Under the pieces are notes generated by a model. That model did not search any database. It was not told the DNA's origin and saw nothing but the letters and a program-made list of their open reading frames with translations. Position numbers and translations under genes: made by a program. Source: Saccoglossus kowalevskii (lineage: Eukaryota > Hemichordata > Enteropneusta > Harrimaniidae). Taken from it: a stretch of 32,471 nt of DNA. Location: positions 119,991 to 152,461 of the forward strand of contig NW_003114469.1 of NCBI RefSeq assembly GCF_000003605.2, read 5' to 3'. This document shows positions 1,534 to 32,471 of the stretch, piece by piece (within the stretch, counting starts at the first letter, position 1; each line of letters starts with the position of its first letter).

Positions 1534-1619
1534 CTTGATTCAGTTACTTTTTCATCTTTGATTAGCTCAAACTCCCAGAATTTCACTGTATGATCAGCAC
1601 TGCCTGTTACAAAACCCCT
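1534..1619 (-). CDS. WDR3: WDR3 exon 13 (residues 502-530), last exon in window
   Basis: 86 nt: RGFVTGSADHTVKFWEF then ELIKDEKVTES. Acceptor TTATTTCAG, donor GTGATA. Two bases of the next codon carry over into an exon not found in the window. Confidence 0.94.
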
Positions 1620-4600
1620 CTGAAATAAATTAAAAAGTAAGAATGCAAAAAATTTATTTACCACATCACATTATTCTATAATTCATTTTAAGGAGTTGTA
1701 CATGCAATCATCATCTAAAAACTGTTAATTGGACATTTAATAAATAAACTGTTATTATACAGTAGAATGACTAACCAATTACCACTTACCTTATCAGGAC
1801 TGAGAGACAGAGACCACACCGCACCATCATGGGCATCCACTGTTTCCAATAAGTCTCCTGATGCGATATCATACAGACATACCTTGCCTGCCTGGAATTA
1901 TAAGCACAGACAAAAATTTTGTTGATTCAGTATCTTTGTCTTTGCACTCAATGGTAATGATCTAGCAGTAACACCAATGTAAAATGTGATGATTTACCTC
2001 TTACCTGTACCCACAATGCAAAACCTATCACCTGGCACAGAATAATTGTAACACCAATGTAAAATGTGATGATTTACCTCTTACCTGTACCCACAATGCA
2101 ATGTCTATCACCTGGCACAGAATAATTGTGACACCAATGTAAATGTGATGATTTACCTCTTACCTGTACCCACAATGCAAAGCCTATCACCTGGCACAGA
2201 ATAATTGTGACACCAATGTAAAATGTAATGATTTACCTCTCATCTGTACCCACAATGCAAAGCCTATCACCTGGCACAGAATAATTGTAGCACCAATGTA
2301 AAATGTGATGACTTACCTCTTACCTGTACCCACAATGCAATGTCTACACCTGGCACAGAATAATTGTAACACCAATGTAAAATGTAATGATTTACCTCTT
2401 ACCTGTACCCACAATGCAAAGCCTATCACCTGGCACAGAATAATTGTAACACCAATGTAAAATGTGATGATTTACCTCTTACCTGTACCCACAATGCAAT
2501 GTCTACACCTGGCACAGAATATTTGTAACACCAATGTAAAATGTAATGATTTACCTCTCACCTGTACCCACAATGCAAAGCCTATCACCTGGCACAGAAT
2601 AATTGTGACACCAATGTAAAATGTAATGATTTACCTCTTACCTGTACCCACAGTGCAATGTATATCACCTGGCACAGAATAATTGTGACACCAATGCAAA
2701 ATGTAATGATTTACCTCTCACCTGTACCCACAATGCAAAGCCTATCACCTGGCACAGAATAATCGTAACATCAATGTAAAATGTGATGATTTACCTCTTA
2801 CCTGTACCCACAATGCAATGTATATCACCTGGCACAGAATAATTGTGACACCAATGCAAAATGTAATGATTTACCTCTCACCTGTACCCACAATGCAAAG
2901 CCTATCACCTGGCACAGAATAATCGTAACATCAATGTAAAATGTGATGATTTACCTCTTACCTGTACCCACAATGCAATGTATATCACCTGGCACAGAAT
3001 AATTGTGACACCAATGCAAAATGTAATGATTTACCTCTCACCTGTACCCACAATGCAAAGCCTATCACCTGGCACAGAATAATCGTAACATCAATGTAAA
3101 ATGTGATGACTCACCTTAGTACCCACAATGCAATGCCTATCACCTGGCACAAACATAGAACATAACACATAACCACTCTTCATAGTACGAATACATTGCT
3201 GGGTAGATCTGAAATAAAACATACAACAAATATGAAATGGGCAAAGGATGATACACTATAGTAAAGATGCCATTTGAATTTTATTTCTACTTTTAGTGAT
3301 ATTTATTCATTCTATGCATGTACAATATTCCTGATACTAAAATATTATTACAGCAAGTGACAAATCTGTTCTTCAGGCTTCTCAACATCATTGCAAATTG
3401 TATGTCAACCTGTATGTTACCAACTTTTATGGTATCAAATTTGGTAAATATTTACACAAAGACCTGTAGCCAACAAGACCCATTCAGTCGAAAATAAACA
3501 AATATGTGAAACTTTAGCACCAGAGTTTTGACTTTTAAAGGGTTGTTGAAATACAATAGGTATAAAAATCCATTGCATGTATCAAGGCTTTCTGCTGCTA
3601 TGGTAACTTACAAAATTTTGCTGCATCGGTAATTCAGGTAAAAACTAGAAACACATGACAAATTTTCCCCAAAGATTCAGTTAGTGCGCCCTCGCTGCCA
3701 GATCCTGGTGCAACCTAGCCAAATGAGTTACTGCACTCGTAGACACTGATGTGAAGTAATGCACTGCCAAGCTACCATTCAGGTTGTCAATATTATTTGC
3801 ATGTATGAATCTCATCAAAGAAGCCATGAAACCCTGATACACTAATCTGAACATTAGGTGGCGCTATACTAACTAATTCATTTTCACTGTGCCTACCTGT
3901 TCCATATTTTAACTGCTTCTCCTGATGCAGATAACAATGCTGTGTCATCTGAACTGAAACATACAGTTCTCACATCGCTACGGTGACCAGGCATGCCCAA
4001 TGAACTTTTGTTCGATGGTTCAGGCTTCTTTTCTCCAATGGACAAACTGAACACTTCCAATGTGTTGTTTGCTAACAAGAGCAAAATTTTTATACTTTCT
4101 CCTTTTTCAAGAATAAAATCACATGATCTGAAATGAGAAAGAATAAAATCAAATTCAAATAATTAAAACCATATTAAGATGAAAAAAATATTAAAAAATT
4201 TACTGTATTAACTCATGAGGTCCTTAAACTCACCTGACTTTATGTGTTGCTCTCACTACAGCAAGTTTTCTAATTTCATCTTCCAATGATAGCTTCACAT
4301 CATTCTCTGTATCTTCTGCTTCTCCTTTTGCTCTAAAAAATAATTTAAAATTATCATAAAAAATACATGTACAGTAGCGTATCATTTGAACCAACATGAC
4401 TAATTACAATTTTTGGTTGACATTTTTGTCTATGATTTCACGTCCTTGAATCTATGCTGCTCCACTAATACCTTGATACAACCTCCCTCCCCCATGAATA
4501 TGACAAGATATTACTAGCGTCACACCTAGGCATTTGTGGAATGCTGCACAGACTCTAAGGTAATGGATTGCAAAAAAATTATTTTCATTAAAATTCATGA

Positions 4601-7600
4601 TTTAACTCTCTTACTTTTGTTTCTTTCTTGATTTCTTCTGTTTTTTCTTCAATCTTTTCGCTAATTCTTCCTCATTACACAAGACAAACACTTCTAATTG
4701 TGAGTCTGTGCCCTAGATATAGATAAAAACATGTCACACAAAAACTTCATCAAATGAAAATAAGGTACCAGTATTGTAGCATCATCAAACTTTGTGAGAA
4801 TCCTATTTAATTTCATTGTCGTTTTACAGACGAATCAAAATAAAAAAATCCAGCATTACTGCTTTACATTACTGGGTATGTGCAGGGCCTAACTACAGGT
4901 TGTCTCATGCAACATCAGCAAAGACATGAAGACATGTTTCCGTTTCTGTCCTAAGTGTCATTCAATACATGTTCTGATGACTTGGCATCATGGTCATTTT
5001 TGTTCAATTTAAGTACATTTATGCAGGATTTCAGGAGTTGACCGGATGCACACAAGTTGCATAAACATATACATAATCTTTCTGGGAGCTCATTCCAACA
5101 AAGGAGTAACTTTGTCGGGAGTCAATATTTTGGAGTGTGCATTTCTGCTGTGATTATTTTAAAATCACAAAAACAAAATTTTTTTGTTCTCTTTGATACA
5201 ACAAAGGCTGTAGGTTGAGATATGCAAATTTAAATTGGGTAGTACAGGAATCGTACAGCAAAAGTACTAGAGACTATTTTCAGTAGCGAAGCGAAGAAAC
5301 AGACGGAGGAAGCTGGGACATTACCAAACTATGTTCAAGGCAAAACAAAATATTTTCATTGGGGGGGGGGTCCAAAGCAAATCAGGAAATTAAAAAAATG
5401 AATATTTAATGGTTCTACAAAAATCTATAGATACATCATCTGGTGATGAAGTAGAATTTTGCTGTTTTATTGTGTTTAATCTTTTATTTTCTGTACACAA
5501 AAGTTATAAATTACACTCATCAATGCCATTCACATCAGGATTTCAACACAAATGAAACTTACATGACATGTTAAAACTCTACCAGTACTATCCATCGCCA
5601 TGGATACTACTCTTTCTCTACTCTGCCTCATAAGTGATCCTACTCGGCTACAGGACAATAAATTCTAGAAATTAAAACACAATAATTGAAATTAATGATC
5701 ATAATATGAAATCACAACAATTTTCAAAGTTTTTAGTTTTTATTAAAACTTTCCAATCTCTACAAACAGTCGGCGTTGATGGTAAAATATTATTATAGTG
5801 GAATTTTTGATAGCGGACAGTTTTTATTTATCACAAAAACAAATTAATGACAACGACAACAAGAAAGACATATTCTTCCTCGTATACTATTCCCTTCATT
5901 AACATTATGGACAGGATGAAAAAGGGTAAACTTCATGGCCACTCTACTGAATGAACTAAGAATGTTTTGTGATGGAATACAACATGTAGTCTACTATGAT
6001 GCAAATATGTATCAGGTATGATCAGACCATTAGTCCAATGTCCTGCTATAAAAAAGGAGTTACGTAACACACACATATGCAGTGACCACTAACATAAACA
6101 TTCATGATTTTGCCCAATCTGATTAAAATAAGATCCTGGTTGGTTTCATTTTTTTAAATATTTTTTTTTATATAATTACTTATACAACTGTAATTATTAT
6201 TTAATTTAATTAATTTTTGACGTTGCAATTATTTTTCTGCAAGAATTGTTTTGCTTGTGAAAGCAAATTTATTGTAAAAACAAATATTAAAAAAATAATA
6301 ATTAAAATTATTATTAATAATACATTAAAATAAAATTTGAAAAATTAAGCCAATCAAAATCTTGTTTTAATCAGATTAGATATTGCCCCAAGGAACCATT
6401 TTTTTTTTCTAACCGGCATTGTACATGTATAAATGCAATTGTATGATAAAATAAACATAATAAACACTGCTACAATACTAATGTCTAATGCCTAATGATA
6501 GATTGTAAAACCATTATTTAAAATTTCAAGAAAAAAACAAGCAGCCTGTCAATTAAAGAACTGAAGATATCATTAGAAAATGAACAATATGTATAGTACA
6601 TTGTATCAAAGCAATCAGACTTGCTGTTCTCAACAAGAATTCAAAAAACTATAATAACTTTTTACCAAAAATATTCATCAAAATTATATAATTATATAAT
6701 CACGAAATGAACAAATCTGACAGAGGTCCACATGTAGTACCTATATATGTAATATCAAAACAATCAGACTTGCCGTTTTTAACAAGAAGTCGAAAATATC
6801 ATTTTGTACCAAAAATGACAAAAATATTCACCAAAATTAGAGAATTAAATATATCATTACAAAATGAACAAATCTGAGAGTGGTCCACATGTAGTACCTA
6901 TATATGTAATATCAAAACAATCAGACTTGCCGTTTTTAACGAGAAGTCGAAAATATCACTTTTTACCTAAAATGACAAAAATATTCACCAAAATTAGAGA
7001 ATTAAAGATATCACCACAAAATGAACAAAATTAGAGAATTGAAGATATCATCATGAAATGAACAAATCTATAAGAGGCCTACCCAAGGTACATATACACC
7101 AAGTATAAAAGCATTCAGGCTTGTAGTTTTCAAAAAGAAGTCGAAAAAGTAAAACATTGACACGGACGACGACGACGGACAATCACTCATACGATAAGCT
7201 CTGCACGACAAAGTCGACAGCGAAGCTAAAAAAAAAGAGATGTAATCTCCTCACGAGCATGCGGGGAGACATCACATGTCTGACATATAATCATTTAGTG
7301 AAATTCAGATTTTAAATATGGCGAAATTGCTGACTTTTTCAATATACAGTGAAAGTGGGACTTGTAGGCCGATCAAAACTTACAGTTTCTTCTTCTTCCT
7401 CGTCTTCTCCAAATATGGAAGTAGACTCTTCAGTTTTCATTTTTTTGGCTGGTTGAGGACCAGGCTCATCACCATCCTCTTCAACCTGCAGAAATATTTC
7501 ACAATTTTATCTTCTCTGCGATGAGAGCATGCGTACTGACCAAATCACAAAGAAATTACATTCTCCATAATTCTTCACAGCTTATGTCTCAGCATAGTAT

Positions 7601-10600
7601 ATGAATGAATTGTGTAATAAATTGTCTGTAATTTTGTTTAATTTGCTATGGCTTTTTCCCTTGAGCAAGATACACTCTAGTGTTCAGTTTATTTCTATCA
7701 TGTGTTTTCCCCTATCTCCCCCCCCCCCCTTTAAGCATGGTAGTACTGCCATTATCTCAAAATTAATAAAGACGTCACAAGAATGATTGTCACCTGATCT
7801 TGATATGTGATATCCCAGACTCTGAGTTCACTGTCCATACAACCTGTTATCATCCGCTTCTCATCTGGTGTTAAACAAAACCCCCACACCTGCAATGAAA
7901 TAAGATTACGTTTATGAAAGCTGCAACCACAATACATGTGAGCTTTGAGTCAGTACAATTTACAGACTGACCAATGAGATATGGCTTGCCCTAATTGAGA
8001 TACGCTTATGAGCAATGAATTGTGCATAGCGCACCTGATGGCAACAAGATCATCCAGAGAACATATAAGATCAGTTGTGATGAGGGGCCACTTTAAAGGC
8101 TTTCATAAGAACAAAATTTGACAAAAGTTGCTGGGATTTGTTCATTGATGTGATGATTCTCACTAAAATATGATCATTTCTCTCTCACAAAATTGAAGTG
8201 GCTACAGTATATTTCAATATATATCGCAACAAAAATAACTACCGATGATACAATGTACTATAATATTCTAAATTCACAAAGAAACAAATACATGTCATAG
8301 TAATTGTATTGGTTATCTGCTTCTAATGATCAGTCTGTTCAATGAAATGATCACTTGTAATAGAATAAATATGGTACATGTATACAAGAAACTTACCTCA
8401 GTTCTGTGTCCCACCATGGTTTTAAAACAATGCTGTGTGTCTAAATCCCAAAACTTTATATAAGTGTCTTTAGAACTAAAGTAATAAATGGAACTCACAT
8501 TATTGAAATGTCTTAGTCGTATTCATTTTTGGCTGAATCAAATTTCAAACCTATGCACAGTTGTATGGTCAAGTATTTGTAAAATGTGCTTTCAGTCAGT
8601 GAAACATAATATCAAATCTCTAGACTACATACAACTGTTATGATCTATCCATCTTAACATTCTAATCTCACAAATATTAGACAATAATTAATCAACTCTT
8701 TCAATATTTTGATTTGATTTTGCCATTTTGAATATTACATTTGTGTAATATCAGAGGTACATTACTTGGGGTTTGCAACGCTCATAGTACTGTATGGTGA
8801 CATCATGCCAAGATCCCATTCAAGTCTCATCTCGTAGATAGCGAGACTGATGCTACGACCTTCTGACATGACATAGGTGGTTTGTAATAAAACAATAAAA
8901 CATGTATTACCACATTCATAATGAAAAAATGTAATACATTAAAAATGTACAGAAAATATAGTTATCGTAATCCGTCATATCGTGATCAGCTATTTTGATC
9001 CACCTGGACATCCCTGTATCCTAGTTACCTTGGGCATGCGCATTCGCACTTTTCTGAATTGGAACGCTTATATGAGAGCAAGATTGAAACAGGATCTTGG
9101 TATCATGTCACCGTAGTTGCAAACCCCAAGTAATGTATCTCTGGTAATATACACCGGTACTATCTAGTGATGTGGAAGAATTTAAAGAATCAATAATCCT
9201 GAAAATAACTTTTCTTGAAATTAGGTTTTAGGTCTGGATAGAAACAGGTGAACTGACTGGTTTTATCAAGTATTTCAGTATGCCACAAGGCAATATGTGA
9301 TAAATTGTGCAAAACATAAATTACATTTGAAGTTTAGAGATGCTGGTTTATATGATATGAATTCAAATATGAACAAATGATAGTGATGTAATGTCATCAT
9401 AAATCCACTTCAGATTCCGATGAAATACAAAACATTGCAAAAAACTGCAGCTATTAAGATCACCTTGAAATAAGAAAATTCCTATTCGCCATAAATTGGC
9501 ATTGTGTAACCATTCCTTTATGACCTTTCAATCGATACAGACCACTTTCATTGACGACATCCCAAACTATGACATCAGTATCCTGCAATGGAGAAATCAA
9601 AATAAATATAATGATAAATCTCCCAGATTAAAACTCAAGCAGAGTGTGAAATTAAAAGTATTCTGGGGGCATCCAATTTCATAGTCAAAAGTCCCAAAAT
9701 TGAAATTGTCAATGAAATATTTGACTATAATGAAGAGTATCAATGCATTCGGATGAGGCATCAAGACAATTGCCTTCATGGCGTCAATGAATTAAAGTTC
9801 TGAAAAGAAATGAGTGATAGACACTCTCTGAGACTGATGACTCAAAATGTAAATTAGTCCAAAATATATTCAAATTAATTTCAATCAACAAAATTAATAT
9901 GTCAGTCAAATTACCTTGGATCCTGAAACCAGTCTAGTGCCATGTGTGTCAAAATTGAGTGCAGATACAGCAGATTTATGCCCATTAAATGTGACAGTGG
10001 AGTCTCCAGTCATCAAATCAAATAACTTAATTGTACCGTCTTGATATCCAACTGCTATACTAGTCTTGTTTGGACTTTTAGCAATGCATGTCACTTCGTA
10101 GTTGTCTCCTTGTAATACCATTACCTGCAATAGATCATTTTGGTGGTTATTTCATTTGTTGTAACTGGTGATATATTAAATTTTATATTTCAATATCAAA
10201 CATGTAAGCCAATTCGTGTAATTTGTTTGTCTATAAGCTTATTGCATTGTGGTTTTTTTTTGTTTTGCCAATCACACAGTCAAGTCTTTTTACAAAATTT
10301 TTAGAAATCTTGTATTTAAATTTAGAGAGCGTATATACATACATTGGTGAGCTTATGTAACTCTGATGTCTGTTGGAAGTCTGCCTTGTTCCAGCATTGG
10401 AATAATATTTTGTACTATTAATATTGTCATACGCACACTTGTTGGCAAACGTGACATTTTTTTTTCTTCATTCATTTCTATATACATATATTTTTTGTTT
10501 TATTTATTTATCATACTAGTTATATGGACTTTAAAATGTTTTACAGTCTGAAATAAAGATAATAATAATAATAATTGAGGGCTGAAAATACAAATAAACT

Positions 10601-10938
10601 AAATCAGTCCATGAAGGTATCCTCCCATAATCAGTCCAATTGATTATAACCGTTCCAGATTACTTATCCTTGCTGCACTAAAATTAGTGTAATGGAGCAA
10701 TGACAAATATATAATTTAGTACTAACTACTTGTATGTACCGCCCTTGAGTGACAGAAGCTATCTCACCTTCTCTGACTTCCGGATGTCCCAAATAAACAC
10801 ATGCTCTACAGCTGGCACGGCAGCGAACTTTCCCTTCTCTTCTTCTGCTTCTAGGTACACCAGGTTTGACTTAGGACTACCGATAACGCCAAAACATGCG
10901 CTACCTACATATCGTAAATACTGCTTCGTTAAACCCAT
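1534..10938 (-). CDS. WDR3: WDR3 (Utp12/Dip2 homologue), 5' 13 coding exons; gene continues past left edge
   Basis: WD40-repeat protein of the UTP-B subcomplex of the small-subunit processome, needed in the nucleolus for 18S rRNA maturation (known for the family). Thirteen exons with GT-AG junctions join without a frame break into 529 codons plus 2 nt: 10768-10938, 9915-10124, 9464-9582, 8397-8475, 7794-7889, 7384-7485, 5563-5664, 4615-4712, 4234-4332, 3897-4127, 3115-3208, 1790-1891, 1534-1619. The start MGLTKQYLRY, the stretches TQHCFKTMVGHRTE and SDSELRVWD-type blade ends, an acidic linker (residues 226-259), a basic run (KRLKKKQKKSRKKQK, about 308-322) and GHRSDVRT match animal WDR3 as I recall it. 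Family members are about 900-940 residues, so the C-terminal WD blades and Utp12 domain are missing here. No further exon is visible in 1-1533, so the next intron probably crosses the edge. The start codon has A at -3 and G at +4. Confidence 0.97.
1790..1891 (-). CDS. WDR3: WDR3 exon 12 (residues 468-501)
   Basis: Thirty-four codons: AGKVCLYDIASGDLLETVD, then AHDGAVWSLSLSPDK. This is a WD blade matching the GKLQLYD...DAHDGALWS region of WDR3. Acceptor ATTCCAG, donor GTAAGT. Confidence 0.96.
1969..3114 (-). repeat. 80-bp minisatellite, about 14 copies, derived from WDR3 exon 11 and its splice donor
   Basis: Intron 11 is almost filled by units of about 80 bp (78-80). On the gene strand each starts with the last 36 nt of exon 11 (GTGCCAGGTGATAG... 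to GGGTAC). Then come a donor-like CAG|GTAAGA or CAG|GTGAGA, a second AG|GTAAAT, and about 40 nt of intron. The true exon junction (3115) is the last unit of the series. Units 10-15 alternate two variants, giving a 160-bp dimer: 2781, 2941 and 3101 begin the same segment. Reading through from the true donor meets TGA ten codons on, so use of the copies would break the protein. Confidence 0.93.
3115..3208 (-). CDS. WDR3: WDR3 exon 11 (residues 436-467), source of the 80-bp minisatellite
   Basis: 94 nt: STQQCIRTMKSGYVLCS, then FVPGDRHCIVGTK and donor GTGAGT. The acceptor is ATTTCAG. The last 36 nt (3115-3150) and the adjacent intron bases recur about 14 times in intron 11. The true exon is told from the copies by its continuous frame, its acceptor and the AAG|GTGAGT junction. 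Confidence 0.95.
3209..3896. other. WDR3 intron 10, no feature seen
   Basis: AT-rich intron of 688 bp with no coding-like frame, clear inverted repeat or known repeat recognised. Confidence 0.6.
3897..4127 (-). CDS. WDR3: WDR3 exon 10 (residues 359-436)
   Basis: 231 nt, the longest exon here. It carries LLLLANNTLEVFSL, then GHRSDVRTVCFSSDD, and ends EAVKIWNR, one complete WD blade. Acceptor CATTTCAG, donor GTAGGC. Two bases of the Arg codon carry into exon 11. Confidence 0.96.
4234..4332 (-). CDS. WDR3: WDR3 exon 9 (residues 326-359)
   Basis: 99 nt: AKGEAEDTENDVKLSLEDEI then RKLAVVRATHKV. The LxDEI segment matches the SLQDEI stretch that precedes the second WD propeller in WDR3. Acceptor TTTTTAG, donor GTGAG. 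Confidence 0.93.
4615..4712 (-). CDS. WDR3: WDR3 exon 8 (residues 294-326)
   Basis: 98 nt, starting GTDSQLEVFVLCNEEE and ending in a strongly basic run KRLKKKQKKSRKKQK, as expected for a nucleolar protein. The acceptor is TATCTAG and the donor GTAAGAG. Two bases of the last Lys codon carry over. Confidence 0.94.
4713..5562. other. WDR3 intron 7, possible old repeat
   Basis: 850 bp. It contains a ten-base G run (about 5361-5370) and the stretch 5281-5340 (AGTAGCGAAGCGAAGAAAC...), which looks repeat-like. No terminal repeats or gene found. Confidence 0.4.
5563..5664 (-). CDS. WDR3: WDR3 exon 7 (residues 260-293)
   Basis: Thirty-four codons, including LLSCSRVGSLMRQSRER and MDSTGRVLTCH. Two AG acceptors lie 17 nt apart. 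Only the upstream one (TTTCTAG) keeps the frame and the conserved LSC residues, so it was chosen. The donor is GTAAGT. Confidence 0.94.
6117..6376. mobile_element. Inverted-repeat element (MITE-like) in WDR3 intron 6
   Basis: The left end ATCTGATTAAAATAAGATC is mirrored by TCTTGTTTTAATCAGAT at the right end. The inverted repeats are about 25-30 bp and surround a very AT-rich core of about 200 bp. No coding capacity, so it is a non-autonomous DNA-transposon type. Target-site duplication not resolved. Confidence 0.65.
6537..7235 (+). repeat. Tandem-module dispersed repeat, copy 1, hairpin-tailed
   Basis: Starts ACAAGCAGCCTGTCAATTAAAG, then has about four modules of roughly 157 bp. Each has ACCAAAATTAGAGAATT, AAATGAACAAATCTGA, GTCCACATGTAGTACC, CAATCAGACTTG and AACAAGAAGTCGAAAAT. 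It ends in ACGACGACGGACAATCAC, an AGCT...GTCGACAGCGAAGCT hairpin and an A run. Copies 2 (16941-17486) and 3 (18395-19050) share the modules. No long open frame. It lies in WDR3 intron 6. Confidence 0.8.
7384..7485 (-). CDS. WDR3: WDR3 exon 6, acidic linker (residues 226-259)
   Basis: Thirty-four codons with no WD motif: a low-complexity linker with an AKKMK basic patch and an EDEEEEE acidic run. Vertebrate WDR3 has a similar acidic, lysine-containing insert here. Acceptor TTCTGCAG, donor GTAAGT. Confidence 0.92.
7705..7732 (+). repeat. Poly-C tract
   Basis: A run of about ten C residues in a TCTCCC-rich context within WDR3 intron 5; simple sequence only. Confidence 0.7.
7794..7889 (-). CDS. 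WDR3: WDR3 exon 5 (residues 194-225)
   Basis: Thirty-two codons, starting VWGFCLTPDEKR and ending in the blade strand DSELRVWDITYQDQ. The acceptor is ATTGCAG and the donor GTGACA. Both flanking introns are phase 0. Confidence 0.96.
8397..8475 (-). CDS. WDR3: WDR3 exon 4 (residues 167-193)
   Basis: 79 nt, with acceptor TACTTTAG and donor GTAAGT. It completes the split Ser codon, then reads SKDTYIKFWDLDTQHCF and GHRTE, nearly the same as vertebrate WDR3 at this place. It ends in phase 0. Confidence 0.96.
8743..9154. mobile_element. 412-bp inverted-repeat element in WDR3 intron 3
   Basis: The left end GTGTAATATCAGAGGTACAT and the inverted right end (GTGTATATTACCAGAGATAC on the other strand) pair. 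Pairing continues through ATTACTTGGGGTTTGCAAC and more weakly through TGGTGACATCATGCCAAGAT. The arms are over 40 bp and reach about 80 bp with gaps. No transposase frame, so MITE-like. Confidence 0.75.
9464..9582 (-). CDS. WDR3: WDR3 exon 3 (residues 128-167)
   Basis: 119 nt, with acceptor ATTGCAG and donor GTGATC. It encodes DTDVIVWDVV and the next blade start LKGHKGMVTQC. Two bases of codon 167 (Ser) are carried into exon 4. Confidence 0.95.
9583..9914. other. WDR3 intron 2, no feature seen
   Basis: 332 bp, AT-rich. A short GACAATTGCCT motif (about 9764-9774) also occurs near 24293, too short to define a repeat. Confidence 0.5.
9915..10124 (-). CDS. WDR3: WDR3 exon 2 (residues 58-127)
   Basis: Seventy codons between acceptor TTGCAG and donor GTAATT. 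It carries one full blade (VGYQDGTIKLFDLMTG) and the next FNGHKSAVSALNFD segment, ending in GSK, so the blade is finished by the DTDVIVWDV of exon 3. Confidence 0.96.
10125..10767. other. WDR3 intron 1, simple repeats only
   Basis: AT-rich intron with T runs and an (AAT)n tract at about 10558-10576. No other structure seen. Confidence 0.6.
10768..10938 (-). CDS. WDR3: WDR3 exon 1 (residues 1-57)
   Basis: Begins with the start codon at 10938 and ends in FIWDIRKSEK, the last strand of the first WD blade, before donor GTGAGAT. It is exactly 57 codons, so intron 1 is phase 0. The N-terminal ten residues are the strongest single match to WDR3. Confidence 0.96.
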
Positions 10939-11242
10939 AGTTATAATTATCTTTCTAAATAATTACAACGTTTCATCATAAACTAAAATCGCGATTGTAA
11001 ACGCACATGTGTGAGGTCAAGGGTTAAAGACTCCCTAGTCTAGACATGTTTCTTCCCACTAAAAAATGTCTTCAATTTTTTATCTTTAATTGTTTACCAA
11101 CGCGTATGCTCTCATTTACGAAATAGTTAATGCAAGGATCTTTCTCAAATTGTTATTCTATTTTTTTACTAACGTTATGTCGAATCATTTAAGTTTTAAG
11201 AAAATGTGCATTCACTTAGGAGTTGATAATTGTCTGAGCAAT
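10939..11242. promoter_or_regulatory. Probable divergent promoter between WDR3 and the TMEM35A-like gene
   Basis: The two start codons face away from each other across 304 bp, so both 5' UTRs and promoters must fit here unless there are non-coding first exons. No clear TATA box is visible. A direct repeat of nuclear-receptor half-sites spaced by one base (AGGTCAAGGGTTA, 11014-11026, second half imperfect) lies inside. Shared control is inferred from the layout only. Confidence 0.6.
11014..11026 (+). promoter_or_regulatory. DR1-like nuclear-receptor site (imperfect)
   Basis: AGGTCA-A-GGGTTA: one perfect half-site and one with a single mismatch to GGGTCA, spaced by one base, as bound by HNF4/RXR-type receptors in animals. 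It sits in the divergent promoter. A 13-bp degenerate match can occur by chance. Confidence 0.3.
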
Positions 11243-11353
11243 ATGGCGTCCAATGTGCTGATCGCACTGTCCATAGCTATAGGAATCTTTTTTGTTTTCA
11301 CTGGTAGCTTGAAGGTCACGCCTGCACTTAATAAGCAGATACACGATGAACTC
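11243..11353 (+). CDS. TMEM35A-like exon 1 (residues 1-37)
   Basis: Thirty-seven codons covering the first membrane segment and VTPALNKQIHDEL. Donor GTGAGT follows directly, phase 0. No copy of this exon is seen near the inverted duplicate. Confidence 0.92.
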
Positions 11354-13905
11354 GTGAGTATTGTTGAATCGTGATAGAATTTTACGCACTTTCAATGGCG
11401 AATGTTATTCTGTCGTACATCGTTTTATGAAAAGCGCCCTCCCCGTCGACCCAAACAAAATTCTAATTTTAAAATTCCCACGTGAAATAGCAAGGTTGAT
11501 TTTACTAGTAGATTGCATTTCATTCGCTCATTATATATGTGTTGACAGTCATTTTTTAAGCAATATAGCATCCTAGATTCAAAACTGCAAAACACAGCAA
11601 AGAATCCAGCGCAGGACTAGAATAAACAGCATACATACAGCATGTAGTATTCAACTACTGTTTTAACAGTTTTTTGACGGAAACATCAAATTATCCTGAC
11701 ATGTAGGCGTGAGTAGCGCCCTCTCAGACCGTATGGCATCAGACCTCACTAACGCCTGACAGAATAGTGTATGTCTCACCGGCAGGATCAATACTGACCC
11801 AATACTGCAAATTCGCAAAGTTCACGCCTTTTTCAATGAGTTCAATGAATTTTCATTTTTGTGGTCATGGTAACACCGTCAATCAAAGCCGTGTTTGCAT
11901 CATCGGCAAAAATCACAGACCGTTTTCAACAAAATGATAAACATTAGGCGGAAATTTGAAATATTGAATTAGTATTTTTAGAAATGCAAATGCTTGCTTT
12001 TTCACATTTTTGCGCGACTTCTTAAATTCATGCATAATCTTAGTCACATAACACAATTTGTTGCATCCTAATCTTATAATTCTTTGCGATATTTATCTAC
12101 CATCATTATTTATTAATAATGAAGCCCGACATTTATTTGGTAGTCCTATGATGCATCTCTTTTATATTTCATAGAGGAATTAGCTTGATGAGATGCATCA
12201 TGGGAGTACCACCATTTTGAGATGCATCATGAGAGTACTGCTATGTTGAGGTGCATTATTTTCAGATGCACCATGGGAGTATAACCATGTTGAAATGTAT
12301 CATGGGAGTGCCACCATGTTAACATGCATCATGGGAGTACAACCATGTTGAGATGCATCATGAGAGAATCACCATGTTAAAGTGCATCATGGGAGTACCA
12401 CATGTCTAGAGGCACCATGGGAGTAATGTCTTGTTGTAGAACTAATTCATTAATTAACTAGTTTTTAACCAATTTGTGTAATCACTAACATACATGAACT
12501 GACGTTACATGAAACTTTTCTTTCTCAAAGTAATAATTCCATGAATATTTTGATCATGGATAATCATTTAATTATCACCCTTTAAAGCTAGGGAGTCATC
12601 ACTTGCACATTCGGCTGAAAGTGTCTGTGTTTACAAACAAGCATCTACCCATGAGCCTTCACATTTTCAGTGCACGTTGTTATTGTTGTTCAGCACTCCC
12701 GCTCATGCTAATTATATAATTCATTATGATCCACTCATTTTTTTTTCTTGCAGAGAAAAGATTTTGGTAAATATGCCAGAGATTTCCCGTTGAGACAGTA
12801 CACTGGATGGAAACCCAAGTCTAAACTTTACATGAAGACTATTGGATGGTTTGAAGTGATATGTGGTGCAGTACTGGTATTTTTACCAAGCTCTAAACTT
12901 AAAAACCTTGCAAACTTGATACTACTAGGAATAATTACAGGTGAGACAACATCCTTGATATTTTAGATGATTTATTAATGAATTATTAGTTATGGAAATT
13001 ATTAATATATATATACATAATAATATCTGCCAAGTACTATTTGGTTAACTTTTGGTTGAAAAATGATGCTATTATTCGCTTTTAAACATGTCAGTTTATC
13101 ATATTATTATTATACATCTGTCACCGTAACGCCATACGTTACAGCGTGCCGTAATTTTGCGGTATTTTACGGGGTATTTTCATCCTACCATATTAGGAAA
13201 TGCTATTTCCAAATATTGAATGATTACACGCGTAAGCGTCTTCTAATAATAAAAACAAACATGGCTGCCACAAGGGTTTGACCGGACTCCATACAAGGAA
13301 GTTCGCTGATTTCGGCATTCCCATAATGTATCCTTGGTAGAAAAAGAAGTATAATAATAAGGTTATTACGAAGATACCTCAAAGTATGCACTCAGACAGT
13401 ATGCTGTCGCATCGACCTCTGCTGCGCGTCGGTCGATACTGCCGCTGTACTGTCTTCGTGCATACTTTGAGGTATTTTCGTAATAACCTTATAATATTGT
13501 CAGTACCTTGGTTCTGTATTGTATGTATGAATTAATTTAACAATGCTAGTCTATGTTAGTTTTGTTCTTCTCAAAATTATTTGGTGGGTTTCTTTATTGC
13601 TAATTTATTCATTTGTCGCAGCTTGATTAAACCACAGTGAATATGTAAAGTTTAAGGCTGGATCTATTGTTTTTACCACTAACCAGTTAATTTAAAAAAT
13701 AGTGAATATGCCTGCAACATCAAATACACTAACATTATTGTTTTACATGATCTGATTTACTACAGGTGCAATCTACACCCACCATATTATAGGAGATCCT
13801 ATCGCAAAGTCCACTGGTGCCATTATTTTCTGGCTATTACTGGTCACTAGGTTTATAATTGCTGTTAAATTCCAACCCAAGGAACGAAAGTTAAAGTCAC
13901 GATAG
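11243..13905 (+). CDS. TMEM35A/NACHO-like ER membrane protein, three exons, 145 aa
   Basis: Exons 11243-11353, 12754-12940 and 13766-13905 join in frame with GT-AG introns (phases 0 and 1) and end in TAG. The product resembles TMEM35A (NACHO), an ER-resident DoxX-type chaperone that helps nicotinic acetylcholine receptors assemble (known for vertebrates; inferred here). Visible: membrane segments at about 5-22, 67-82, 90-108 and 117-133; the N-terminal IGIFFVFTGSLKVTP; a GWFEVICG helix with the family G..E..G pattern (68-75); HHIIGDP (105-111). The C-terminus KLKSR fits a KxKxx COPI retrieval tail. The frame stays open upstream to 11090, but this ATG (caatATGG) puts the start where the family begins. 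The AATAAA at 13939-13944 is only 34 nt past the stop. TMEM35A rather than 35B, because of the FFVF.G..K.TP start and the HH.IGDP motif. Confidence 0.92.
12191..12440 (+). repeat. 29-bp minisatellite, about 8 degenerate copies
   Basis: Unit close to GATGCATCATGGGAGTACC + ACCATGTTGA, repeated with substitutions. An inverted single unit (GGTAGTCCTATGATGCATCT, 12139-12158) lies just upstream, so a stem could form. It is in the first intron of the TMEM35A-like gene. Confidence 0.85.
12583..12705 (+). mobile_element. MITE-like element, copy A
   Basis: TTAAAGCTAGGGAGTCATCA, then GTTTACAAACAAGCATCTAC and CCATGAGCCTT. These match, in opposite orientation, the element at 25436-25595 (TTTAAAGCAGGGGAGTCGTC-type end, GTTTACAAACTAGCGTCTAC, CCATGATCCTT). 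The far end here is degraded. Confidence 0.6.
12754..12940 (+). CDS. TMEM35A-like exon 2 (residues 38-100)
   Basis: 187 nt after a pyrimidine-rich acceptor (TTCTTGCAG), ending ATTACAG|GTGAGA. It encodes the loop RKDFGKYARDFPLRQY and the second and third membrane segments. Confidence 0.94.
13357..13492. mobile_element. Near-perfect 136-bp fold-back element in the TMEM35A-like intron 2
   Basis: ATAAGGTTATTACGAAGATA... at the left is mirrored by ...TATTTTCGTAATAACCTTAT at the right. The arms are about 60 bp, with an inner pair ATCGACC / GGTCGAT around a GC-rich centre. Transcribed as part of the intron, it would fold into one long hairpin. No coding capacity. Confidence 0.85.
13766..13905 (+). 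CDS. TMEM35A-like exon 3 (residues 100-145) with stop
   Basis: 140 nt after acceptor TTACTACAG. It encodes AIYTHHIIGDPIAKSTGAII, the last membrane helix and the basic tail ending KLKSR, then TAG. Confidence 0.94.
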
Positions 13906-15699: not shown

Positions 15700-16940
15700 T
15701 TTGCTACTAATTGAGCAAATTTCATAGTAACGCATTGAATCATAAATGGACAAAGAACAGATACTATAGAAATTATCAAACATTTGATTGATGGTTCATA
15801 ACAACAGCGATACGACCAGTATCTCACTACAAAGCATATATTGTATTCATCATCTTGTGGGATAGTCTTGTGAATAAGTGGTTGGTATGACAACATACTC
15901 TGTGTCCCATGATTTTTTTCTTCTTTTCTTCTGTTGTTCTAAATAGTGACCTCTAACACTAGTTCTGATTTGTTGCTGGTTTTGCAAGACTAGAACATGA
16001 TTTGCATATAGATACTGTAAAATACTTCGCTATTTTCGCTAAACGATCATACTGCGCATTATGAAAAGGTTTAATAATTTTATTGACCAAAAGCAACCTG
16101 TTATTTCAGTTTGAATTTGTGAAACTCACATAACTTTTGTAATCAAAGAAAGCTTAGAAAGAACTCCCGTGTGCTGAGAGTATTTGGAGACGCATTAAAA
16201 TTAATTCAAAATTTAAGATTTGCCTCTCAACCGAGAAACTTGGCAACTAATATTTGTCTGCTATTTGAGATGTGCAACATGAAAACGGTTCTTGAGATAT
16301 CTGTGGAACAGACAGACACAGGGAGTAAAAAATGAAGAGATTTGTATGCTTGTGTCTAACAAGAACAAGTTTTATTTACAGACTTTTGAATACACTAACT
16401 AAAAATACAATATGTACAAATTAGAAATAAACAAAACACATTTAATCCAATAAATCCATTAAATGTAATTGCTTACTTATTCTGTTCCCTGTAACAGGAT
16501 TTAAATTTCTGAGGTGACAAGAATTTATTATATCATTTTTCATATATGATATTGTAATTGCATTCATAATTATTTATAAATTGTACACACGATTGTAAAC
16601 AATTTGCCACCAAGATGGTTGAAAACTAGACTCATTTAAATAAATTAAAATAATTAAATAAAATGTGCAAAGTTTCCACAATATATTGCAAAAAAAACAT
16701 ATTTTCTTTATATAATACCCCTAAATCTATTTAAAGCATATTTGTTTCAGTATTTATTGATATATTTGTATAGCAGGTTCATTTTTGAAAAAATTCATGC
16801 AATGGAAAACAAAACTTGTTTAAATGAAAAAGGGGATATTGAAAATGTATACATTTCAATAATATATTTAGATGGTGCACTACATAATACAAAAATGTAC
16901 TTATGAAAAGTTGCATATCTAGAGAATGAAAAGTGATATA
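15700..16940. other. Gene-free AT-rich stretch with one repeat fragment
   Basis: Contains the GGTTCTTGAGATATCTGTGG fragment (16286-16320) shared with the left-edge repeat and ACTGTAAAATACTTCGCTAT (about 16016), a common end motif shared with the 29.5-kb element. No gene is recognisable. Confidence 0.5.
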
Positions 16941-17486
16941 AACAAGCAGCCTGTCGGCTTACATAGCTCCGCTGTTAGCAATGCACATTTCAATTAAAGA
17001 ACTGAAGATATCATTAGAAAATGAACAATATGTATAGTATCAAAGCAATCGGACTTACAGTTTTTAACAAGAAGTCGAAAATATCACTTTCTATCAAAAA
17101 TGACCAAAATATTCACCAAAATTAGAGAATTGAAGATATCATCATAAAATGAACAAATCTGAGAGAGGTCCACATGTAGTACCTATATGTATACCGGTAA
17201 TATCAAAGCAATTGGACTTGTGGTTATTAACAAGAAGTCGAAAATATAACTTTTTACCAAAAATGACAAAAATATTCACCAAAAATAGAGAATTAGAGAT
17301 TTTGACATGAAATGAACAAATCTGAGAAAGAACCATCCAAGGTACCTGTACTTGCATATCAAATTTGAAAACATTCTGACTTGCGGTTTCGAAGAAGAAG
17401 TTGAAAATGTAAAGTTGACGACAACGGACAATCAGTAATATGAACAGCTTCGCTGTGTCGACTTTGTCGACAGAGAAGCTAAAAAA
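16941..17486 (+). repeat. Tandem-module dispersed repeat, copy 2, hairpin-tailed
   Basis: Same family as 6537-7235 and in the same orientation: start ACAAGCAGCCTGTC, two to three modules with AACAAGAAGTCGAAAATAT, then ACGACAACGGACAATCAG. It ends in a hairpin AGCTTCGCTGTGTCGAC / GTCGACAGAGAAGCT (17446-17480) and AAAAAA. Confidence 0.8.
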
Positions 17487-17898: not shown

Positions 17899-19503
17899 TC
17901 ACTGCGTCTTTAACTTGTATTCCTTGTATTGGGATTTAACAGCAATTATAAACCTAGTGAACAGTAATAGCCAGAAAATAATGGCACCAGTGGACTTTGC
18001 GATAGGGTCTCCTATAATATGGTGGGTGTATATTGCACCTGTAGGAAAAAAAATAAAAGTCAGATTCTGTAAAACAAAAAAATATTCAGTGAGTGTAATT
18101 TTAGATTTGACGGATTCATAAAGTTTTAAAATCACTAGTTTGTAAAGAAAAACAAAATTATTATATTTTACATATTCATTGTCTTTTAATTATGTTGCTA
18201 TTTATATAGTTGACGTCAACAGACACTGGTAATTTGTATTAATTTAAGCTGCAAGAGTGACTAATAATAATTCTGAAAATAAACACATGCATCCTTTGCC
18301 AAAATCAACCATTGTTAGTACAACTCGTAGACCATAAACTTGAAAACTCAATGAAAAAAGGTTGGCAGTATGTGATTTAACACTACAGTGATTTGATTTG
18401 ATCTGTCCTGTGGTGATACACATGTAATAATCAAAATATAATTTTGTACTGAAAATGACAAATGTATTTATCAAAAAAATGAAAATAATAATATTGTCAC
18501 GAAATGAATAAATCTGAAAAAGGTACATGTACACCCAAGTATCACAACAATCAGCCTGGTAGTTTTCTAGAAGGTGAAGTTTTTTACAAAAAAAAATGAC
18601 ATAACTATCCACTATAAATAAAGTATTGATGATTTTGTCACAAAATGAACAAATTTCACAAGGGTATATCAAGTATTAAAGCAATGAACCGGGTAGTTTT
18701 CAGGAAAAAATATATTATTTCTTACCAAAAAACATCACTAAAAACAAAGATTTAATGATGTTGTCATGAAAATTTACAAATCTGACTGAGGTATCCCATG
18801 GTACCCAAGTGTCATTTATGAAAGTATTTGAGTTGGTGGTTTTCAAGAAGAAGTCAAAAATATAATTTTAAACTAACTATATGGCAAAATTATTACAAAA
18901 AATAAAGAATTATTGGTATCATTTATCAAATCAGTTAGGTTGATAACTCTCAAGTAGAAGTAGAACATGTTATTGTTGATTGGCGGATGGCGAATGAACA
19001 ACAGGCACTTACTCTACTCTGTCATCTTCAGTGATGGTAGAGCTAAAATTATAAATTATGATTGTAAAACAAATACATTTATTAAGAGATCCCAAATACT
19101 GACAATGTCAATATGATCACCTGACATTTCAGAAATCAATTGCATCACTTTTTAACCAAAAATGAACAAAACAGTATTAATTCGCAAATATTTCTTTGAA
19201 ATATGTATTCACGTATTGCAGGTCTTTGATATATTTTCATATTTTCCATAAACTACTAATCAACGGCCAACATCTAAAAGATGAAGATGTTATTTCTCCT
19301 GTAATTATTCCTAGTAGTATCAAGTTTGCAAGGTTTTTAGGTTTAGAGCTTGGTAAAAATACCAGTACTGCACCACATATCACTTCAAACCATCCTATAG
19401 TCTTCATGTAAAGTTTAGACTTGGGTTTCCATCCAGTGTAAAGTTTCCATCTTGTGTACTGCTTTAACAGGAAATCTTTGGCATATTCACCAAAATTTTC
19501 ACT
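17899..19503 (-). pseudogene. Inverted partial duplicate of the TMEM35A-like gene (exons 2 and 3 only)
   Basis: Exon 2 copy 19299-19503 and exon 3 copy 17899-18038 lie on the opposite strand to the parent and are nearly identical to it. Exon 3 has the same 140-nt length, seven changed residues out of 46, and stop TGA in place of TAG. Similarity continues into the 3' flank (GTGCCATGATG). Exon 2 carries an 18-nt in-frame insertion (RWKLYT) after QYT. Acceptors are intact (TTTGCAG, TCCTACAG), but the exon 2 donor reads ACAG|GAGAAA where the parent has ACAG|GTGAGA, so GT has become GA. No exon 1 copy is visible up to about 22.5 kb. Retained introns show this is a DNA duplication, not a retrocopy. 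The reading frames are still open, so the event is recent, or a distant exon and a cryptic donor rescue it; pseudogene is the likelier reading. Confidence 0.85.
18395..19050 (+). repeat. Tandem-module dispersed repeat, divergent copy 3, inside the pseudogene intron
   Basis: Four decayed modules with TCACGAAATGAATAAATCTGA-like, GTACCCAAGT and GTTTTCAAGAAGAAGTCAAA-like motifs. The tail TTGGCGGATGGCGAATGAAC...GTAGAGCTAAAAT matches the hairpin-tail position of copies 1 and 2. It sits between the two duplicated exons and explains why this intron is longer than the parent's. Confidence 0.65.
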
Positions 19504-21170
19504 CTGCAAAAAAAAAAATGGGTATAGTTTTGAGGTCATATTAGCAACTGGTTGGAAAGAAAAAAATGAGGACAACATTCTTATTTTTATCCTATCATAA
19601 AAAACTTATTTCTTTCAAACTGAAAGCATTTAGGGAACACAAAATATGGTTTTAACCAAACACTGGTGTTGTCAAGTTTTGTCAGCATCCAAAAAATTAG
19701 TTTTGTTCATTATAGTTGCTTCTATGAAATATTAAAAGGCCACTGTCAACAGAACTGCACATGCATCATTGTGGATTTTTGGCTTCGCAGCCAGTTGGAA
19801 GAGTTCTTTTGCCTAAAAATTCCTTAAATTTTTGTAAAATGCCTAATAATCTCCCTGGGCCTACCAGAAAGGTAATGGCCATGCATTGCAGATTAATACT
19901 TCCCATAGAAGAAGAGATCACCAAGGTCTGAGTGATAATCTTTTTAGTCGTCAATTTCATCTAGATGTGATTAGTGAGTGGGGATCTAAATCATGATGTC
20001 ATTTGCGTATTATATTCAGAAGAGTGCCACCTAAGCATTATGTTAAAATTTGTCATGTTCAAACTTTTGAAATAAGAATAAAATGAATGGTAATGAATGT
20101 TTAATGTTCATTTCTCATATTTTAAATTTAAATTCTAATATTTTAACATGCTTTCTCATATGTTAAATTTAAATACTCATATTTTAAATTGGAATGCTTA
20201 TAATTTAATGTTCCAATTTTAATTACAGCTCTAATCACACACCATAGGCAGTATATATATATTCAGTCATCGCCCACTCAACACAGCCATGCATCGCATG
20301 GATATAGCAAAATGAGATGGATGTGCGCAGCAAATAGATGCGCATTGTTTTGAATCAAACAGATGAACCAAACGCAAACTAATAACTGCAAGAACTTCGA
20401 TTTATCCGAAATTACTTCGAATTTTGGCTCAATTAAATAAAATATCGTGTAAGTGGAATTGATGTTATGATATTGCTGGTGAACGCATGCGCATTCCGCG
20501 ATTGTGCCTAACCCGTCCACCTCATTTCGCCAAGGTGCGGTGTTGTTTGGACATATAAATTGTTTTGATCGCATTTGAAAATAGAAACATACTTTAACAG
20601 AAATAACAAACTTCGGCCTTTGGAGAATTGTGAATTAACAACGACCAAAAATTCATTAAAATACTACATGCTTCATACACATAAGTTTTCAAATAAAATA
20701 AAGCTATTAACCCTACAGTGGGATAATCCTAAATATTTTTTTTCCTATTAATCTTTTAACATCTTAATTTATTTTTTATCTTTATCATAGTTTAGTTGAT
20801 TTAGCTGCTGTATTTTGTATGATTTTATTTTATTTACCATACTGTGCCATCTGATGGTTACTGCCACTACATATGGGAAATTATCGAGAAGCTATCAAAT
20901 GATATATCCAATAATATTTGAAGTACAATGATCATAAACAACAATTTGTAACAATGTAACAAATATACAGTACAATTATATTTTTTTATGTTTTACTGTA
21001 GATTTTAAGCTTAAATGTTTTTTGTTTTATTTTAAATTTATGCATAATTTAACAAGCAAATAAAGACACAACGAAGAAAAACAATGATAACAAACAAATA
21101 GAGGTTAATTTTGGAACGTTTGGTCAAAATGTTCTAGAATTATGAAAACCATCTCGTTATAATGAGAATA
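19504..21170. other. Gene-free stretch upstream of the inverted duplicate
   Basis: Searched for an exon 1 copy of the TMEM35A-like gene on the minus strand and none was seen. A GGCTTCGCAGCC hairpin (about 19780-19792) and low-complexity TATTTTAAATTTAAAT sequence (about 20115-20220) are present. Nothing else supported. Confidence 0.45.
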
Positions 21171-27353: not shown

Positions 27354-27656
27354 CTAGTCTTCCTTGCTTTTGACTTCACACTGACATAAAATTCCAATCA
27401 GTGTCAGTCCAATGACCACAGGGAAAGCTATTTGTGCCGGCGGCTCATGAAGCTGTTGCAGGGTAAATGTAGCTCCAGCCATGATGACGATCAATAATAA
27501 GGCAGTGAACTTCTTGAGTCTCAGAGGTCCAACCAGTAGTATCAAACCTCCAACTGTTTCAACAATACCGACGACAAACTGGTACATTGCCGGTTCCGGT
27601 TTTATATCAAAGCGAAGTAGTGGAAATACAGTTGAGAAACGAACAAATGCTTTTGT
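27354..27656 (-). CDS. TMEM35B-like exon 2 (residues 34-133) with stop
   Basis: 303 nt from acceptor TTTTCAG to TAG. It carries the family core (TVFPL...P.Y.FVVGIVE) and three hydrophobic segments, with a short polar tail ending KSKED. Confidence 0.92.
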   Translation of the reverse strand, partial: TKAFVRFSTVFPLLRFDIKPEPAMYQFVVGIVETVGGLILLVGPLRLKKFTALLLIVIMAGATFTLQQLHEPPAQIAFPVVIGLTLIGILCQCEVKSKED

Positions 27657-31505: not shown

Positions 31506-31537
31506 ACAGTCCCTCTATCACGTGATAGAGGGACTGT
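31506..31537. repeat. 32-bp perfect palindrome centred on CACGTG
   Basis: Half-site ACAGTCCCTCTATCAC is followed at once by its exact reverse complement, with the E-box CACGTG at the centre. AT-rich flanks (TTTAATA / GGTTTAA) extend the pairing imperfectly. It is loop-free, so cruciform-prone. It may be an insertion relic or a dimer binding site. Confidence 0.85.
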
Positions 31538-31749: not shown

Positions 31750-32471
31750 TTGTAATCGACGAAACGAAACAAAACGGAATAACACACATAATGAAAATTA
31801 AACTGTAATCAGTGAAAATGGGTTTTATACGCACAATATTTACAAAATATTTGCCGAAAATAATAATATTTAATACGTATATGGCTCGTTTCGCTAATTA
31901 CAGATAATCACAAATCACTACAATATTAACAGCCGTCGGTTTAAACTTGACCGTGACCTTTCAGTAGTGTATATATAACAACATAAAACATATTCAAAAA
32001 TCTGTAATCAGCGAAACAAGGGTCTGACACGTACAATATTAACAATTGTCGGACAAAACATGACCAGTATATTTACCTTGCAGTCGTGTATAACTCAATG
32101 AAACATTTGCTGAAAATAACGGGGATTTTATGATTAGTAAATGGTTCGTTTCGCTAACTATAGATAATTGTTTTATGAAGTTTTATACACGACTGAAAGT
32201 TAAAAATACTGGTCATGTTTCGTCCGATATTTGTGATTATTGTATCTGTAATTTAATAAGACCCTGTTTCGCGTGATTGCAGATTTTCGATTATCTGTAA
32301 TTAGCGAAACGAACCATATACTGATTATATTGTTATTATCGGCAAATGTTTTATTACGTTATATACTCTTACTGAAAGGTGAATATACTGGTCAAGTTTC
32401 GTCGACAGTTGTGAATATTGTACGTGTCAGAGTGTATATACATGTAATAACATTTGCCGAAAATAACGGGA
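31750..32471. repeat. Array of inverted and direct modules, running off the right edge
   Basis: Three modules recur in both orientations. A is GTTTCGCTAATTACAGATAA (plus at 31886, 32146; minus at about 31751, 31803, 32002, 32290). B is CAATATTAACAATTGTCGGA then ACATGACCAGTATATTTACC (plus at 31922, 32033; minus at about 32183, 32361). C is ACATTTGCCGAAAATAACGG (31845, 32099, 32449; minus at about 32327). Segments 31997-32096 and 32183-32289 form a long imperfect palindrome about 32140. No coding sequence; it could be a satellite or the end of a large fold-back transposon. Confidence 0.8.

Follow-up and report, generated by a model that had tools for sequence, protein, structure and literature searches.

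The window analyzed here, a 32,471-nucleotide stretch of the genome of the hemichordate Saccoglossus kowalevskii (NCBI RefSeq assembly GCF_000003605.2, contig NW_003114469.1, positions 119,991 to 152,461), carries on its minus strand the first 13 exons of WDR3, and the junction between exon 11 and intron 11 of this gene forms one end of a tandem array of 80-bp units. The array arose from the exon's own junction, and is probably a mostly neutral minisatellite seeded by a duplication across that junction, with the true donor still in use. WDR3 is a ribosome-assembly factor and is presumed to be essential. A preliminary description of this DNA had proposed approximately 14 units of 80 bp in intron 11 of WDR3, grown from the true junction at one end; the array, its origin, the gene, and the exon number were all borne out. 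The array, the gene, the reading frames, the site strengths under two matrices, the dimer pattern, and the end of an exact repeat are the observations on which this reading is built.

Gene model and anatomy of the array

Exons 1-13, modeled from consensus splice sites, comprised 529 codons from the start, and residues 1-528 of the predicted protein aligned colinearly with residues 1-535 of human WDR3 (943 residues; E=4e-231). Neither a gap nor an insertion relative to the human protein was found at the exon 11/12 join (...VGTK/AGKV...; a slash marks the splice point here and below). The remaining coding sequence, which was not found in the window, presumably lies past its left edge. The features of the gene, all on the minus strand, are as follows:

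1534..10938, minus strand: WDR3 exons 1-13 (splice-site model and human WDR3 match)
3115..3208, minus strand: WDR3 exon 11, 94 nt, ending in phase 0 at ...VGTK (gene model and human WDR3 match)
3109..3117, minus strand: true 5' splice site AAG/GTGAGT (gene model and donor scoring)
1892..3114, minus strand: WDR3 intron 11, 1223 nt, comprising 1147 nt of array and 76 nt of other sequence (gene model and array overlap)
1790..1891, minus strand: WDR3 exon 12 (AGKVCLYDIAS...), phase 0 (gene model and human WDR3 match)

Intron 11 is the second longest of the 12 modeled introns, after intron 6 (1719 nt). Tandem Repeats Finder (TRF) placed the array at 1968-3151 (1184 bp) with a period of 80, 14.9 copies, and 91% matches. 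Exon 11 was the only one of the 13 exons overlapped by a tandem array (by 37 nt) in a comparison using 13 of the 15 TRF rows, the two omitted rows overlapping a used one and lying beyond exon 1. Cutting at TGTGCCAGG gave 15 head-to-tail units, namely the true junction (U00) and 14 decoys (U01-U14):

1968..3151, minus strand: 80-bp tandem array, U00 and 14 decoys, over the last 37 nt of exon 11 (TRF, unit cutting, and exon overlap)
3077..3151, minus strand: U00, the junction copy, 75 nt, with an intronic half identical to U02 and U04 only (unit comparison)
2677..3076, minus strand: U01-U05, where U01, U03, and U05 are exactly identical, as are U02 and U04 (unit comparison)
1968..2676, minus strand: U06-U14, decoys without exact duplicates, U14 being cut at the distal array end (unit comparison)

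U00 consists of 37 nt of exon followed by GTGAGT and intron. Decoys are 79-80 nt long, except for U14 (72 nt), which ends at GTTAC, the point of return to unique intron sequence. In the sense direction, a typical decoy is TGTGCCAG GTGATAGGCTTTGCATTGTGGGTACAG GTAAGAG GTAAATCATYACATTTTACATTGGTGTYACAATTATTC. The joint between units, of approximately 8 nt (AATTATTC), matched by eye neither the upstream exon nor the intron downstream of the array, and we interpret it either as filler or as intron sequence that was lost from the far end. Head-to-tail units of this length fall within the range of 10-100 bp given for minisatellites in an excerpt of PMC11506328.

Judging from the sequence, the end of exon 11 is the source and the array is the copy, because the duplicated exonic stretch encodes FVPGDR..GTK, which is common to human WDR3 (and in part to fungal Utp12). 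Units had been described as beginning with the last 36 nt of exon 11: the exonic origin stands, and the unit does reach into exon 11 coding bases, but the overlap is 37 nt and the decoys are not exact copies. The true junction, ACTAAG/GTGAGT, became ACAGGTRAGAGGTAAAT in most decoys through a 5-nt indel plus substitutions, and in the 32 columns preceding ACAGGTRAGAGGTAAAT, where the exon-derived stretch has drifted, decoys differed from the exon at 1-3 positions. A degenerate pattern of the exon core matched 12 of the 15 units, had no other match in the window, and did not occur in 100 shuffles. The core pattern (exact, with one degenerate base) had no match in viral_contigs or genome_contigs, collections of viral and prokaryotic DNA with little bearing on animals. 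A dispersed element as the source of the array was rejected: in a BLAST of the array against the remainder of the window, no match was better than E 0.39 among the matches listed.

Growth of the array and its border at the true donor

When units were typed by one exon-derived position, the order from U00 was BABABABABABAABA, and 12 of the 13 neighbor steps among the decoys alternated (permutation p 0.0024). For lags of 1, 2, 3, and 4 units, the mean number of differences among the complete decoys (U01-U13) was 6.8, 3.0, 6.5, and 3.7, respectively. From the alternating types and the low lag-2 and lag-4 differences, the array therefore grew mostly by 160-bp dimers. The intronic half of U00 showed no differences from U02 and U04 and at least two from every other unit, and the intron flank of the true junction has therefore taken part in the exchange. 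At 296 nt, the longest exact repeat has copies beginning at 3109, which is +6 of the true donor, and at 2949; it does not extend into the exon. Thus, copies are homogenized up to the true donor and no further, with the border of exchange at or downstream of +6. The exact 296-nt repeat also suggests a recent change in copy number.

We also considered what an exchange reaching the exon would do. In an exon end of the array form, the first donor shortens exon 11 by 2 nt and the second lengthens it by 5 nt, and both frame shifts (-2 and +5) met a stop in the one consensus form tested. Such exchanges would therefore have been removed by selection.

Exact 296-nt repeats are difficult for short-read assembly, and a single assembly was examined; the copy number may accordingly be wrong, or the array may be missing in most individuals. 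We regard this as unlikely, since complete decoys differ at up to nine positions in an ordered pattern and the flanks are colinear with the gene. An assembly error could alter the number of identical dimers, but would hardly create the array.

The course of events that we favor is as follows. A tandem duplication of approximately 80 bp over the junction, comprising 37 nt of exon, the donor, and approximately 40 nt of intron and filler, would have provided the minisatellite seed. Slippage or unequal exchange may then have enlarged it, largely in two-unit steps, until growth reached the edge of the exon at the true donor without entering. Donor-like sequences would have been kept in the copies by descent from the junction and not by selection.

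Strength of the decoy splice sites and predicted consequences of their use

Donors were scored with general donor frequencies and by U1 duplex energies, the register being chosen by the duplex program. The true donor, AAG/GTGAGT, scored 12.56 (-10.7 kcal/mol). The strong decoy sites were CAG/GTGAGA (four copies; 12.06, -11.1 kcal/mol), CAG/GTAAGA (nine copies; 11.23, -11.0 kcal/mol), and GAG/GTAAGT (one copy, in U10; 11.80, -10.7 kcal/mol), and the weaker ones were GAG/GTAAAT (13 copies; 7.04, -6.9 kcal/mol) and the exon-derived CAG/GTGATA (12 copies; 7.03, -8.2 kcal/mol). CAG/GTAAGA or CAG/GTGAGA was present in 13 of the 14 decoys, and these 13 sites pair slightly better with U1 than the true donor does. 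The proposal that the decoys look as good as or better than the true donor thus holds in part: the first site is approximately equal, but no decoy attains the true donor's matrix score, and in all but one of the 14 the second site is weaker. Similarly, each unit was said to carry one or two donor-like sites; multiple sites are present, but U11 has lost its first donor (CAG/ATGAGA).

The 13 real donors of this gene had general scores of 5.81 to 13.68 (median 8.35). The ranking was similar with a matrix trained on the gene's other donors: the true donor beat 12 of the 13 real ones, the strong decoys 9-11, CAG/GTGATA 9, and GAG/GTAAAT 1. According to excerpts of a 2025 survey of 25 species (PMC12480690), the GT[N]4 hexamer explains approximately 60-85% of donor choices, largely via U1 pairing, and GTAAGT is the strongest. 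Against this optimum, the true GTGAGT is one base off, the decoys GTAAGA and GTGAGA are one and two bases off, respectively, and the U10 site is identical.

Read-through past the true donor adds seven codons (VSHHILH) before a stop, in agreement with the expectation of a stop within ten codons, and extension of exon 11 into the array is therefore predicted to truncate WDR3. The broader claim that decoy use would truncate the protein is incomplete, because inclusion of an in-frame 27-nt pseudo-exon through an acceptor-like site (described below) is conceivable.

We infer that the true donor is in use, that the decoys are neutral, that selection acts at the border, and that leaked transcripts decay. 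The true donor would be the productive site because it is the sole keeper of the frame, is transcribed first, and alone possesses the full exon 11 with its upstream acceptor (exon definition). The decoys would be mostly passive, and any leakage by exon extension would yield a truncated product, presumably cleared by nonsense-mediated decay. No excess conservation of donor columns, and thus no sign of selection on decoy splice sites, was detected in U01-U13: the variable columns numbered 6 of 30 in the acceptor/branch region, 5 of 27 in the pseudo-exon, 3 of 13 in the donor, and 2 of 10 in the rest (16 of 80 overall). The suggestion that the copies could compete for U1, or slow or buffer splicing, thus gained no support from these columns. 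Two other functions were rejected. A structured RNA unit was not supported by the three decoys folded (U09, U02, and U01, of 14), which folded no better than shuffles (z -0.87, 0.42, and -0.71, respectively); Rfam at gathering thresholds and ARAGORN had no match in the window. A guard against premature polyadenylation would have no evident site to guard, AATAAA, ATTAAA, and AGTAAA being absent from intron 11.

Several points weigh against passive decoys. Fourteen decoy sites in intron 11, distributed over 13 units, scored at least as high as the median donor of the gene, where 0.5 were expected and the simulated maximum was 3, and 41 sites scored at least as high as its weakest donor (simulated mean 2.2, maximum 7); the simulation used 400 first-order sequences of 1223 nt per threshold, trained on the 11 other introns, with repetition not modeled, and the 41 sites are copies of approximately three per unit. 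All 14 strong sites are closer to the downstream acceptor than the true donor is. Reed and Maniatis reportedly found in 1986 that, with duplicated splice sites, proximity can favor the inner site; their constructs reportedly resembled the WDR3 array in presenting tandem splice sites with exon context to one partner, and differed in that the array is natural, with 15 copies in a full gene context. From the strength of the decoys and their proximity, decoy silence is therefore not self-evident, and might need active repression. Furthermore, the border at the donor could be due to chance or to the 5-nt heterology, and not to selection. Leakage or active repression is a fair second possibility.

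A more active form of leakage would be a brake, in which the repeated 5' sites bind U1 and divert part of exon 11 splicing to extended transcripts that encode a truncated product and undergo degradation, with WDR3 output thereby tuned by the number of copies. The excess of sites over both simulated thresholds, the persistence of the 14 strong sites under the gene-trained matrix, and the stop seven codons into the array are all consistent with this. On the other hand, the 41 sites are copies of approximately three per unit and not independent evidence, the first donor of U11 is lost, donor columns are as variable as others, and heavy leakage should harm a gene presumed to be essential. We therefore consider the brake possible, but doubtful.

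The acceptor side of the units was also analyzed. Every decoy carries an acceptor-like TTATTCTGTGCCAG/G (beginning ATATTC... in U08), and the stretch between CCAG/ and the strong donor is 27 nt long, in phase 0, and open in 11 of the 14 decoys. U08 and U10 carry a 1-nt deletion inside this stretch, leaving 26 nt with a stop, and U11 is without the donor. An example is:

3042..3068, minus strand: pseudo-exon of U01, 27 nt from CCAG/ to CAG/GTGAGA, encoding VIGFALWVQ (unit scan; acceptors weak by the gene-trained matrix)

Such cassettes (CCAG/ ... CAG/GTRAGA) may form a ladder of in-frame micro-exons, each inserting VIGFALWVQ, or a variant of these nine residues, after GTK. With a human-type matrix, the array acceptor scored 9.60 in 13 of the 14 decoys and 7.78 in one, whereas the real acceptors had a median of 5.74 (n=12), and 11 of the 14 have a TTTAC resembling a branch point 29 nt upstream. 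Acceptor-donor pairs numbered 39 in intron 11, against none in the 11 other WDR3 introns and one in 3161-32471 (both strands), at thresholds set after the array scores were known. With a gene-trained matrix, built on only 12 sites, the array acceptors (-5.6 to 1.0) were below all 12 real ones (lowest 1.08, leave-one-out) and reached at most approximately the 90th percentile (1.24) of 279 background AGs. Open cassettes are also little surprise: the open fraction of random 27-nt intron pieces was 0.53, and one open ancestor would give open copies. Since the spacer intron would moreover be just 53 nt, and two units contain a stop and a third lacks the donor, the ladder is very unlikely.

It is also improbable that the array acts as a copy-number rheostat, in which the number of decoys (as donors, perhaps also as 27-nt cassettes) would set productive WDR3 splicing while selection shields the true junction from overwriting.

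Neighboring repeats and comparison with known systems

Other repeats were found in the window. An A+T-rich unit of 157-163 bp forms short tandem arrays in intron 6 and approximately 10 kb away (6549-7233, 16990-17486, and 18433-18923); its pieces are 65-88% alike, as in a dispersed repeat with internal tandem units. A small minisatellite of 29-bp units (12189-12425) lies upstream of exon 1. Inverted copies, 83% alike, occur at 12733-13012 and 19229-19523. Palindromic (self-inverted) stretches of 32-305 bp (6116-6377, 13354-13495, 31990-32294, and 31506-31537) are possibly non-autonomous DNA transposons. A short sequence shared at 91% (120-153 and 16287-16320), beside a (ACACACAT)n microsatellite at 149-187, may mark one end of a short dispersed element. 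Two open reading frames (ORFs), 19237-19578 on the minus strand and 11090-11374 on the plus strand, had no Pfam match; they resemble exons of TMEM35-type membrane proteins, perhaps two inverted paralogs. A 77-aa ORF at 27354-27587 (minus strand) matched Pfam DoxX_2 (E 6.8e-07).

Among known systems, the minisatellite of human IFI6 (6-16, G1P3) reportedly gives multiple splice donor sites (Turri, Cuin and Porter, 1995). As in WDR3, where CAG/GTRAGA occurs in 13 of the 14 decoys and the true donor in U00, minisatellite units supply donors to one exon; however, the WDR3 unit is 80 nt, against approximately 12 nt in IFI6, combines 37 nt of coding exon with intron and an acceptor-like site, and its use by extension is predicted to be truncating. 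An excerpt of PMC4526556 reports that two downstream repeat units of IFI6 are used as donors. In human segmental duplications, tandem repeats located at exon-intron boundaries can, according to the relevant passage of PMC2812944, change splicing or form new introns. The repeats described there likewise lie across the exon-intron border, but belong to recent primate paralogs with transcript support, whereas WDR3 is one gene, the predicted coding part of which is unchanged.

New introns have been described as arising when an exon segment bearing AGGT is duplicated in tandem (Rogers 1989, Hellsten 2011, and the potato RdRp gene, as told in part of PMC4974935), and the same text includes a fission yeast case in which a 24-bp AGGT segment is present in multiple copies. 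WDR3 resembles these cases in that splice signals were copied along with a tandemly duplicated local segment: exon 11 contains CCAGGTGATAGG, and each of the 14 decoys has CCAGGTG. If the duplicated exon ends had provided AG/GT points, intron 11 may be divided into steps by intron gain or recursive splicing. This is extremely improbable: there is a single intron position, predicted exons 11 and 12, separated by one intron, join colinearly with human WDR3, the acceptors are weak by the gene-trained matrix, and a 1.2-kb intron has no evident need for steps. Unlike in intron gain, the predicted model of WDR3 has no second intron, and many copies have lengthened the existing one.

Earthworm metallothionein genes also contain an intronic minisatellite, the role of which is obscure (excerpt of PMC12783039). 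Among the results listed in our literature search, which most subscription papers lay outside, there was no unit of approximately 80 bp that takes in the end of a coding exon together with its donor, nor any such array in WDR3.

The locus represents a natural duplicated-splice-site experiment, in which a conserved housekeeping gene presents, inside 1.2 kb, a true donor and 14 sites of similar strength and context, and in which the array has been homogenized as far as a coding junction that it has not overwritten. Donor usage and the effect of array length would weigh the contributions of U1 pairing, exon definition, transcription order, and acceptor proximity to donor choice.
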